DNA from: Clostridia bacterium
GTDB taxonomy: Bacteria > Bacillota_A > Clostridia > Oscillospirales > Acutalibacteraceae
Reading direction: 5' to 3'
NCBI GenBank assembly: GCA_017423885.1
Contig: JAFPCJ010000112.1
Location: 1 to 5,574 of the forward strand
DNA length: 5,574 nucleotides
The notes under the pieces are model-generated. The model was given only the letters and a program-made list of their open reading frames with translations, searched no databases and was not told where the DNA came from. This document shows positions 754 through 5,281 of the stretch, piece after piece. Position 1 is the first letter of the stretch. Each line of letters starts with the position of its first letter. Both the position numbers and the translations under genes were made by a program.

Positions 754-807
754 AAATTGGCATAATAAATATGTGTTAAATACACAGTCTTCGGAGAAGT
801 GAAGAAA

Positions 808-1977
808 ATGGACATTAAGCAAAAAGCATTACAAAAGCATTATGAATGGGGCGGAAAGCTTGAGGTTGGTTCCAGGGTGACTGTAGCAGATGCCGAATCA
901 CTCTCGCTCGCATACACCCCCGGTGTTGCTCAGCCTTGCCTTGAAATACAAAAGGACCCAAGCCTTTCTTATGAGCTTACCCGCCGCTCAAATCTGATAG
1001 CGGTAATAACAGATGGCTCGGCGGTTTTAGGTCTCGGCAATATTGGCCCCGAAGCCGGAATGCCTGTAATGGAAGGTAAGTGCGTGCTTTTCAAGGAGTT
1101 TGCGGATGTGGATGCGTTTCCTATTTGTATACGCTCTAATGATGTTGACGAGATAGTTGAGACGGTATACAGAATATCAGGCTCATTCGGCGGAATAAAT
1201 CTTGAGGATATATCGGCACCGCGCTGTTTTGAAATCGAAAAAAAGCTTAAAGAAAAATGCGATATTCCCGTTTTTCATGACGACCAGCACGGTACTGCCA
1301 TCTGTGTTGCCGCCGCTATGCTTAACGCCTTAAAGCTTGCGGGTAAGAAAATAGAGGATATAAAGTGTGTTATAAACGGTGCAGGAGCCGCAGGTACTGC
1401 TATCGGTGAGCTTCTTTTGAAGCTTGGACTTAAAAAGCTTGTTATGTGCGATAAGATGGGCGCTATATGCCGCGGCATGGAATTGAGCGAAGCGCATGAG
1501 GCTCTGGCGCAAAAGACCAATCCCGACAATGAATCGGGCAGTCTTGCCGAGGTTATAAAGGGCGCTGATGTGTTTATCGGTGTGTCTGCTCCGAATATCG
1601 TAACACGCGAGATGGTAGCATCCATGAACAGCGGTGCCGCAGTTTTTGCAATGGCAAATCCTGTTCCCGAAATTATGCCTGATGAAGCACTTGCAGGCGG
1701 TGCGGCAGTAGTCGGAACCGGGCGCTCGGATTTTGCAAATCAAATTAACAATGTTTTGGCTTTCCCCGGTATCTTTCGCGGAGCGCTTGATGTAAGGGCG
1801 AGCGATATAAACGATGAAATGAAGCTTGCCGCGGTTTACGCGCTTTGCTCGCTTGTATCGGATGACGAGCTTAAAAACGATTACATACTTCCAAAGGCGT
1901 TCGATAAACGCATTGCGCCTACCGTTGCAAAAGCGGTAGCCGAAGCGGCAAGACGCTCGGGAGTTGCAAGGATATGA
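808..1977 (+). CDS. Malic enzyme, short bacterial NAD(P)-dependent form
   Basis: It catalyses oxidative decarboxylation of malate to pyruvate and CO2 with reduction of NAD(P), in the cytosol, and needs a divalent metal. I chose the ATG at 808 (389 aa) because GGAG at 793-796 lies 11 nt upstream; an in-frame GTG at 799 would be only 2 nt from it. N-terminal malic domain: LAYTPGVAQPC with catalytic Tyr36, VITDGSAVLGLGNIGPEAG, and MEGK with the catalytic Lys91. Metal ligands are in NLEDISAP (Glu133, Asp134) and FHDDQHGTA (Asp158/159). The Rossmann domain has GAGAAG at 191-196; Asp215 ends the next strand (VMCD), which tends to favour NAD over NADP. Near the C terminus NNVLAFPGIFRG is the usual family motif. 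There is no phosphotransacetylase extension, unlike MaeB. All key residues are present, so it should be active. First gene of the proposed operon, 24 nt before the ECF gene. Family very sure; cofactor preference inferred. Confidence 0.95.
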   Translation: MDIKQKALQKHYEWGGKLEVGSRVTVADAESLSLAYTPGVAQPCLEIQKDPSLSYELTRRSNLIAVITDGSAVLGLGNIGPEAGMPVMEGKCVLFKEFADVDAFPICIRSNDVDEIVETVYRISGSFGGINLEDISAPRCFEIEKKLKEKCDIPVFHDDQHGTAICVAAAMLNALKLAGKKIEDIKCVINGAGAAGTAIGELLLKLGLKKLVMCDKMGAICRGMELSEAHEALAQKTNPDNESGSLAEVIKGADVFIGVSAPNIVTREMVASMNSGAAVFAMANPVPEIMPDEALAGGAAVVGTGRSDFANQINNVLAFPGIFRGALDVRASDINDEMKLAAVYALCSLVSDDELKNDYILPKAFDKRIAPTVAKAVAEAARRSGVARI

Positions 1978-2001
1978 TATATTTTGAAAGGACGAATAAA
2001 A

Positions 2002-2523
2002 ATGAGTACACAATCAAATAAAAATGTAAAGCGACTTGTAGCCGCGGCTGTGTTTATGGCGATAAACGTAGTTTTCAGTTCGTTTGGAATACCTGTTCCG
2101 GGCGGCAGGATATACCTTTGCGATGCGGTTATATGCACAGCCGCTATGCTTTTTGACCCCATTTATGCCTTGGCGATAGGCGGAATAGGCGCCTTGCTCG
2201 GTGATATGTTTTTTTACCCTGCCGCTATGTTCGTATCGCTTTTGGTTCACGGACTTCAGGCAATAACAGTTTCACTTTGCACACATTTCACTTTTAAAAA
2301 GCATCCGCTGTTGGGAATGATACTCGGCGGCGTTTTGGGATGCGTGATAATGACTGTGGGGTATACGCTCGGAAAGGTATTTGTATACGGCGAGCTCGGC
2401 AAGTGGATGCCGGCGCTCATTACCGCTCCCTTTGAGCTTTTGCAGTCGGCGGTGGGAACGGTCATCGCAATAACACTTTGCTATAGTCTTAAGTTGCGCG
2501 ATAAGCTTAAACTTGATATATAA
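2002..2523 (+). CDS. ECF transporter S component (substrate-binding membrane subunit)
   Basis: A small, very hydrophobic integral membrane protein of 173 aa. The start is ATG 2002, since AAAGGA at 1987-1992 sits 9 nt upstream; an earlier in-frame TTG at 1984 overlaps that site and is unlikely. About six membrane segments are visible, near residues 11-28, 37-50, 54-70, 73-94, 103-127 and 137-161, followed by a Lys-rich cytosolic tail. The first helix carries an AxxxA pattern (Ala16, Ala20), which S components use to dock on EcfT. The loop GIPVPGGRIYLCDAV followed by AAMLFDPIYALAIGGIGALLGD matches the general ECF S-component family (PF07155/PF12822-like). These proteins bind a vitamin or small metabolite and share an EcfA-A'-T module encoded elsewhere; none is in this window. 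Substrate cannot be read from sequence; its place between a malic enzyme and a GRE suggests uptake of the GRE substrate or of a cofactor (inference). Confidence 0.85.
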   Translation: MSTQSNKNVKRLVAAAVFMAINVVFSSFGIPVPGGRIYLCDAVICTAAMLFDPIYALAIGGIGALLGDMFFYPAAMFVSLLVHGLQAITVSLCTHFTFKKHPLLGMILGGVLGCVIMTVGYTLGKVFVYGELGKWMPALITAPFELLQSAVGTVIAITLCYSLKLRDKLKLDI

Positions 2524-2543: not shown

Positions 2544-4529
2544 ATAAATAAAACAGTTTATAACTTCTTTTTGGATAAAAAGCATCACGAATATCGCCAT
2601 GCGGTCGATTGGAATTTGGCGGAGGAATATTCCGCAAAGGGGATGACTCCCATTGAGCGTATGGCTGACCGCTTTGAGCGTCTTTGCGAGGAAGAAAAGG
2701 CAGTAATTATCGATGGCGAGCAGATCGTTTTCATGCGTACAGTTTCAAATCTTCCCGAGATCTTTACCGATAGCGAGTGGGAAGAGATAAAGTCGAAGCA
2801 TTTTATACATGAGCTCGGCTACAATTCCAATCTTTCTCCGAATTTTGGGGACGCAATAGCAGAAGGACTTTTGAAAAAACGCGAGAGCGCCGATGAATAC
2901 GGCAAGCGTGCTATTGATAATATTATCAAGCTTTCGGATAAATACCTTGCCGAAGCCTAGAGACTCGGCAGGGAGGATGTAGCCGCAGTTTTGCGTCAGG
3001 TGCCGCGTTATCCTGCACGTAATTTCCGCGAGGCTCTGCAGTTCTTCCGTATTATCCATTATTCGTTATGGCTTGAAGGAAATTATCATAACACTGTCGG
3101 TCGCTTCGATCAGTATGTGAATGAATATCTTTTATCGGATATTGAAAAGGGTGTACATACATACGAATCGGCACTTGAACTGCTTGAAGACTTCTTTTTG
3201 TCCTTCAATAAGGACAGCGATATCTATATTGGTGTTCAGCAGGGCGATAACGGTCAGAGCATGATGCTCGGCGGAATAGATAAGGACGGAAACGATGCCT
3301 TCAATCTGCTTTCCGAGCTTTGCTTAAAGGCTTCCTGCAACAATAAGATGATCGATCCTAAAATAAATCTGCGCGTGAGCCGCAACACCCCTGCCGAGCG
3401 TTATACTCTTGCTACCGAGCTTACCAAGGCAGGTCTTGGTTTTTCGCAGTATTCCAATGATGATATCGTAATTCCTGCGCTTATAAAAATGGGCTACAGT
3501 CCCGAGGATGCCGCGGATTATACCGTTGCCGCCTGCTGGGAGTTTATTGTGCCTGCAGTAGGTGCCGATATAGCGAATATCAGCGCAATGTCTTACCCCA
3601 AGGCAGTAGATATTGCATTACATAACAACCTTGAAAAGTGCGCTACTTATGAGGAGTTTTTCGGTTGCGTAAAGCAGGAGATACAAAAGGAGTGTGACTC
3701 TATTTGTGATAACATCAAGGATGTATGGTTTATTCCTGCGCCGTTTATGAATGTGGTTATGGATTGTGATATCTATAACGGCGGAAAGTATAATAACTTC
3801 GGTATTCACGGTACGGGTATCGCTACCGCTGCCGATAGCCTTGCCGCTATAAAGAAGTATGTTTTTGAAGAGGGAACACTCCAAAAGAGCGAGCTTATAA
3901 AAGCGGTTGACGAAAATTTTGAGAATTCTCCCGAGCTTTTGCATAAGCTGCGTTTCGAGGCTCCAAAGCTTGGAAACAACGATGATTTTGTAGACAGCAT
4001 TGCAACCGATTTGCTTGACTCCTTCGGTGCGGCACTTAAGGGCAAGACAAATTGCCGCGGCGGAATTTTCAGAGCAGGTACAGGCTCTGCTATGTATTAT
4101 CTGTGGCATGCCAATGAGATAGGCGCTTCGGCTGACGGAAGAAGAGCCAAGGAGCCGTTTGGTACCAACTACTCGGTATCTCTTTTTGCCAAGGTGAAGG
4201 GTCCTGTTTCGGTAATCGCTTCAATGACCAAACAGCATTTTGAAAACGCAATGAACGGCGGTCCGCTTACACTTGAATTCCACCAAAGCATATTTGCCGA
4301 TCAGGACGGTATTGAAAAGGTCGGAATGTTAGTCAAGAACTTTATCGACCGTGGCGGTCATCAGCTTCAGCTTAATACCGTTAATCTCGAGCGTATGCTT
4401 GATGCACAGGCACATCCCGAAAATCACAGACAGTTGGTCGTGCGTATCTGGGGTTGGAGTGCTTACTTCGTAGAACTTGACAAAGAGTATCAGGATCATG
4501 TTATCGCCCGTCAGGCGTATACGGTATGA
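2544..4529 (+). CDS. Glycyl radical enzyme (PFL-like), unknown substrate, interrupted by an in-frame TAG
   Basis: An oxygen-sensitive cytosolic enzyme that uses a protein glycyl radical to make a thiyl radical on its active-site Cys. The frame from ATA 2544 to TGA 4529 gives 661 codons, with one TAG at codon 139 (2958-2960); both sides read as one family member. Numbering from 2544, VPRYPARNFREALQFF (153-168) and GRFDQY (186-191) are family motifs, and DPKINLRV begins at 271. The active-site segment AACWEFIVP has thiyl Cys331 and Glu333. This Cys-x-Glu pattern is that of dehydratase, lyase or decarboxylase GREs, not the Cys-Cys of pyruvate formate-lyase. GGHQLQLN (604-611) precedes the glycine loop RIWGWSAYF with Gly637, and the tail ends near VIARQAYTV. 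At about 660 residues it is shorter than the usual 750-900; the shortage is in the N-terminal helical region. It overlaps its activase by 4 nt. Family is certain; substrate unknown. It may be a recent pseudogene, a read-through gene or a split protein. Confidence 0.88.
2958..2960 (+). other. In-frame amber codon inside the GRE gene
   Basis: TAG interrupts the GRE at codon 139 between DKYLAEA and RLGREDVAAVL, a helix that normally continues without a break. No frameshift is involved: the frame is the same before and after, and the downstream 522 sense codons are open. One base change from GAG, AAG, CAG or TGG would produce it. If translation stops here, a purine-rich AGGGAGG (2970-2976) lies 14 nt before an in-frame TTG (2991), so weak reinitiation could give a 512-aa piece that retains both Cys331 and Gly637 but lacks the N-terminal helices. 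Could also be a sequencing or assembly error. Confidence 0.8.
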
Positions 4530-5281
4530 TAGGCACTATATTTGATATAAAGGAAATGGCGGTGCATGACGGACCCGGCATCAGAACTACCGTGTTCTTT
4601 AAGGGGTGCCCTCTGCGCTGCCGTTGGTGCCATAATCCCGAGGGTCTCGATCCAAGACCGCAGCTTATGTACAAGGATGCGCGGTGTATCGGTTGTAAAA
4701 GCTGTCAGCGCGAGTGCGAGCATGAGGAGTGTCAGCCTTTTGGCAGATGTATTCATTCCTGCCCTGAAAATTGTCTTGAGATAACAGGCAGAAGTATTAC
4801 TGCCGCCGAGCTTGCAACAGAGCTTAAAAAAACCGCCGAAATTCTCGGCAGTTCCTTTGGCGGCTTTACTTTTTCAGGCGGTGAGCCGCTTATGCAGTAT
4901 GATTTTTTGGCATCGGTTGCACACAAGCTTTCTGACTATCATCTTTGTATAGAAACGAGCGGATACGCTAACGCGCAGGTGTTCAAGCAGACTTGCAAGA
5001 TAATGGATCTTGTAATTATGGATGTAAAGCTTGCAGATAACGCACTTCATGAGAGGTATACAGGTGTCAGTAACCGACAAATACTTGAGAATTTAGACTA
5101 TCTAAAGAGGAGCGGAACGCCTTTTATAATACGCACTCCGCTAATTCCAAATATCACTGATACCGTAGAAAATCTTTCTGCGATACAAAGGCTTATAGGC
5201 GATGCCAAGTGGGAAAAACTACCCTATAACCAAATGGCAGGCGCAAAATATAAGATGCTCGGAATGGAATATAAGCTTTGA
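4526..5281 (+). CDS. Glycyl radical enzyme activase (radical SAM protein)
   Basis: It uses S-adenosylmethionine and a 4Fe-4S cluster to abstract hydrogen from the glycine of the preceding GRE (Gly637). The 251-residue product opens with the activase signature DGPGIRTTVFFKGCPLRC. Radical-SAM cysteines are Cys28, Cys32 and Cys35 (CxxxCxxC), followed by HNPEG. An inserted ferredoxin-like segment has a complete CxxCxxCxxxC set (Cys54, 57, 60, 64), then a modified second set with Cys69, Cys75, Cys79 and Cys83, where the expected second Cys is Phe72. SGGEP at 117-121 contacts SAM, and IETSGY and MDVKLAD are further barrel motifs. It ends right after the LPYN...LGMEY motif, without the extra helix many activases carry. 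The ATG overlaps the GRE stop (ATGA), with only a weak AGG 10 nt upstream, so translation is probably coupled to the GRE. Apart from the Phe72 change, no damage is seen, which bears on whether the GRE is really dead. Confidence 0.94.
   Translation: MIGTIFDIKEMAVHDGPGIRTTVFFKGCPLRCRWCHNPEGLDPRPQLMYKDARCIGCKSCQRECEHEECQPFGRCIHSCPENCLEITGRSITAAELATELKKTAEILGSSFGGFTFSGGEPLMQYDFLASVAHKLSDYHLCIETSGYANAQVFKQTCKIMDLVIMDVKLADNALHERYTGVSNRQILENLDYLKRSGTPFIIRTPLIPNITDTVENLSAIQRLIGDAKWEKLPYNQMAGAKYKMLGMEYKL

Follow-up and report, generated by a model that had tools for sequence, protein, structure and literature searches.

An amber codon, a damaged start and an altered proline in a short glycyl radical enzyme gene: a probable recent null allele beside an intact activase gene

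Introduction

Glycyl radical enzymes (GREs) of the PFL2/glycerol dehydratase type (TIGR01774), among them glycerol dehydratase (1r8w), diol dehydratase (5i2a/5i2g), PflD (8yjo) and HypD (6vxc), are the closest known relatives of the gene described here. They share with it the PFL-like and Gly_radical domains, a thiyl cysteine with a glutamate two residues further on, a C-terminal glycine loop, and an activase encoded alongside. They differ from it in length, with about 780 residues compared to about 660 in this gene, and in integrity, as the present copy is broken.

The gene lies in a window of 5,574 nucleotides, by which we mean the whole stretch of DNA that was analysed, from an uncultured bacterium whose relatives are Oscillospiraceae/Clostridia MAGs from herbivore guts. 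We compared the window DNA with 398 genomes from one family, 327 of which matched, the best long match listed being 75% identical; a comparison of the window with plasmid sequences gave no match. A first-pass annotation had read the GRE as intact except for one in-frame amber codon, and had offered a very recent mutation or strain polymorphism, amber suppression or reassignment (including pyrrolysine), or a two-piece enzyme in explanation.

Results

Organisation of the window

We identified five genes in the window, all on the + strand: a piece of a DUF11-type repeat protein (1-540), a malic enzyme (about 811-1977), an ECF transporter S component (2002-2523), the GRE gene interrupted by TAG (2544-4529), and an intact radical SAM GRE activase (4526-5281). 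The activase is in frame and its start at 4526 overlaps the GRE stop, as had been noted previously. It scores 258 bits against TIGR02494, compared to a cut-off of 174, and is undamaged beside relatives that are 98, 96 and 95% identical to it. There are no internal stops in the four genes other than the GRE.

Neither the malic enzyme nor the ECF transporter S component (window 799-2523) was found adjacent to the GRE in any of 76 related loci (tblastn, 1e-5), and this neighbourhood therefore looks particular to the lineage of the window.

Three altered sites in the GRE gene

Counted from 2544, the GRE comprises 661 codons, and an in-frame TAG occupies codon 139 (2958-2960, + strand), in agreement with the first-pass annotation. 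The N-terminal part of the broken gene, residues 2-138, is open (2547-2957, + strand), and so is the C-terminal part, residues 140-661 (2961-4529, + strand), which contains the PFL-like and Gly_radical domains and runs for 522 sense codons up to a TGA at 4527-4529. The retention of Cys331 (3534-3536), Glu333 and Gly637 (4452-4454) was likewise borne out, all three residues being invariant in a 33-row family alignment; we take Cys331 and the glutamate two residues on to be the active-site pair, and Gly637 to carry the radical.

The amber codon had also been described as a lone stop with no other damage to the frame. The reading frame is indeed otherwise undamaged, but we additionally identified two further lesions, at the start codon and at residue 301. 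The closest relative, the predicted protein P0002, is 98% identical, full length at 661 aa, and has Met1, Glu139 and Pro301; it is encoded on one 2733-base contig. Both P0002 and the closest related loci begin in register with window position 2544, where close relatives and P0002 have ATG/Met and the window has ATA (2544-2546, + strand). Across the 69 related loci that cover residue 139 (7 of the 76 were left out, as the match did not reach this position), 67 have an ATG no more than 12 codons from where the start is expected and one (L074) has a GTG, the remaining one being cut by a contig end (L023). A Shine-Dalgarno-like AGGAG, read by eye, lies 8 bases before 2544 (2531-2535, + strand). 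From the in-frame stop upstream, at 2514, as far as a TTG at 2571, the window contains no ATG, GTG or TTG, and no Shine-Dalgarno site was seen by eye ahead of this TTG. Both ATA and ATT count formally as bacterial start codons, although they are rarely used, and as ATA can initiate weakly, some initiation here is possible.

The third lesion is a serine codon at residue 301 (3444-3446, + strand), in a column that is otherwise invariantly proline, both in P0002 and in 118/118 other aligned orthologues (P0074 and P0102 having been dropped from this alignment by length). Proline also occupies this position in three solved GREs that we aligned, glycerol dehydratase, diol dehydratase and PflD.

P0002 departs from the window at 11 of 661 positions, a count that takes in the start and the stop. 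Three of the nine sense differences fall in columns conserved to at least 98% (359 of the 661), and two of these are changes in P0002 itself (Tyr226 and Cys344), which may therefore be drifting or error-bearing. The corresponding count in the 25 closest other pairs is 18 of 113; as the counts are small and the pairs overlap in ancestry or membership, this comparison alone does not prove relaxed selection. Seven residues common to the window and P0002 (101, 102, 193, 197, 280, 325 and 399) depart from columns that are at least 98% conserved in 118 other orthologues, and may reflect either a long branch or a shift in function.

Residue 139 in related enzymes

Aligning orthologues at residue 139, as had been suggested earlier, yielded varied residues that are mostly lysine (Lys in 109, Arg in 5, Gln in 3, Glu in 2 and Asn in 1 of 120 listed homologues), with glutamate in P0002. 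That none of these 120 database proteins has a stop at this position is weak evidence, since predicted proteins cannot contain one. At the DNA level, a sense codon was found at 139 in 69/69 loci covering the position; the encoded residues are more diverse in the distant loci, where the alignment is less sure. In a structural model of P0002 (mean pLDDT 87.9), residue 139 is placed near the end of a helix spanning residues 118-140. Nothing suggests that an unusual residue is needed here.

Family and possible substrate

The piece of the GRE past the stop scores 262.6 bits against PF02901 and 69.6 bits against PF01228. Its domains, the Cys, Glu and Gly residues and the adjacent radical-SAM activase alike place it with GREs of the PFL2/glycerol dehydratase type, and it is a member of a short group (about 660 aa) within them. 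The nearest solved relatives of P0002 are glycerol and diol dehydratases, and its model has the GRE fold (TM 0.84 to 5i2g by query length). No equivalog model for a GRE of known substrate, such as HypD, CutC, PflD or sulfopropanediol dehydratase, reached its cut-off when the piece past the stop was searched against NCBIfam, the best equivalog scoring 273.7 compared to 1100 bits.

We found a DUF4867 (PF16161) gene between GRE and activase in one related locus (L001:7582-8232). Gaps of 669-906 bases separate GRE and activase in eight others (L016, L018, L020, L022, L024, L025, L043 and L060), which may also hold a DUF4867 gene; the window has none between these two genes. As DUF4867 (SqvB, SftX) is found in clusters for sulfoquinovose, according to passages in PMC9594981 and PMC13219744, our guess is that the substrate of this GRE clade is a sugar or sugar acid.

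Origin of the lesions

The GRE carries more than one disabling change, at start, stop and Pro301, and has intact orthologues, and it is very probably a null allele, or pseudogene, of recent origin next to an activase gene that is intact. Of the explanations offered by the first-pass annotation, it is the very recent mutation or strain polymorphism that gains support, from the full-length relative P0002 at 98% identity and from the sense codon at residue 139 throughout the loci compared. Judging from the sequence, translation would begin rarely if at all and, when begun, would stop after about 138 residues, so that no working GRE would be made. The activase, with its start overlapping the GRE stop, may in turn be translated less. 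The rest of the GRE would still be readable because the damage is young.

A sequencing or assembly error in the metagenomic contig could instead have made the stop, lost the start or both, the true gene being intact. The existence of a nearly identical intact relative is consistent with this, and the damage to the GRE, being limited to a few points, could in part stem from the assembly. However, such an error would have to account for three substitutions, each separate and each at a critical site, within a single gene, with no indel, and with none in the activase or the other genes of the window; we therefore give this explanation a slim chance.

It is very improbable that the TAG is read as an amino acid, through suppression, reassignment or pyrrolysine, and that the enzyme is made. 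Recoding is suggested by the 522 open codons past the TAG and by the retained catalytic residues, but the residue concerned is variable and falls where a helix ends in the structural model. We searched for a recoding apparatus in the genomes of 13 relatives, picked by GRE or DNA similarity out of roughly 400, these being MAGs of unstated completeness. PylS remained below the cut-off in 13/13 (18-33 bits, compared to 178), while release factor RF1 was above its cut-off in 13/13. Below-cut-off PylS matches were also obtained in most control genomes, 1 of 14 controls being above the cut-off, and the weak matches are presumably other class II synthetases. No tRNA(CUA) was found with ARAGORN among 27 CUA-pattern matches in 12 of the 13 genomes, all 27 loci being covered and several of them proving to be tRNA-Arg or tRNA-Ser; the anticodon-arm pattern requires A37 and a variable arm of 4-5 bases, and misses suppressors of other shapes.

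The use of TAG elsewhere also argues against recoding. It terminates 33 of 278 long ORFs, mechanically listed, in loci L001-L033, and the GRE itself ends in TAG at 4 of 68 loci (L016, L022, L025 and L060). The first-pass annotation had proposed counting in-frame TAGs in other conserved genes: across the five genes of the window the only one is that in the GRE, the other four having none, nor does TAG serve as the stop codon of any of the five. The RNA past the TAG folds like its shuffles (z -0.28). Finally, suppression would supply no missing start, and would leave both the start and Pro301 altered. The suggestion of amber suppression, reassignment or pyrrolysine is not supported.

Nor do we retain the proposal of a two-piece enzyme, in which a C-terminal piece with a start of its own would assemble with residues 1-138; we consider it, like recoding, unlikely, and its probability is very low. 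Both pieces are open, and a GGGAGG near 2970 lies ahead of a TTG at 2991. However, this TTG is about 15 bases from the purine run, and the first piece has no standard start. The first in-frame starts past the TAG are TTG 2991 and GTG 3000, and the first ATG comes only at residue 240, leaving the second piece with no good start. No protein with its start at the break is present among the 120 listed matches (7998 best candidates scored); the shortest of them, P0122 (491 aa), has no initial Met, opens within the domain and is probably a contig-end fragment.

There is scarcely any likelihood that the silencing is leaky, with weak initiation at ATA and low-level readthrough by a CUA-reading tRNA leaving a trace of full-length GRE.

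Damaged GREs in related loci

We identified two further GREs with independent damage among the related loci. In L058 (6000-7565), an otherwise normal orthologue contains a frame change, which is the sole early in-contig stop among 68 loci and is either real damage or an assembly error. In L071 (5572-7155), the GRE retains only residues 2-248 and 638-661, with an internal stop and a large deletion. The activases of both loci align nearly full length. These two cases fit a repeated loss of the GRE within the operon, although both are on MAG contigs in which errors are possible.

Discussion

The null allele or pseudogene favoured here suggests that, in an uncharacterised clade of short GREs, some strains can lose the enzyme yet keep a readable activase gene. 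It also bears on the annotation of metagenomic genes that are intact but for a single in-frame amber codon, in which a second lesion should be checked for before recoding is invoked.

Genes that are recoded at amber codons, including those with pyrrolysine, resemble this one in that, in a gut-type anaerobe, a conserved gene contains a single in-frame TAG. They differ in that here no machinery was found in the relatives, the residue is variable, and the start has been lost as well. With ordinary bacterial pseudogenes and nonsense alleles the GRE shares a lost start, a premature stop, a change at an invariant residue and an intact close relative, and it differs from them in that the damage is young, with frame, activase and catalytic residues still readable. 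The GRE thus looks like an ordinary loss of function rather than a change in the genetic code.
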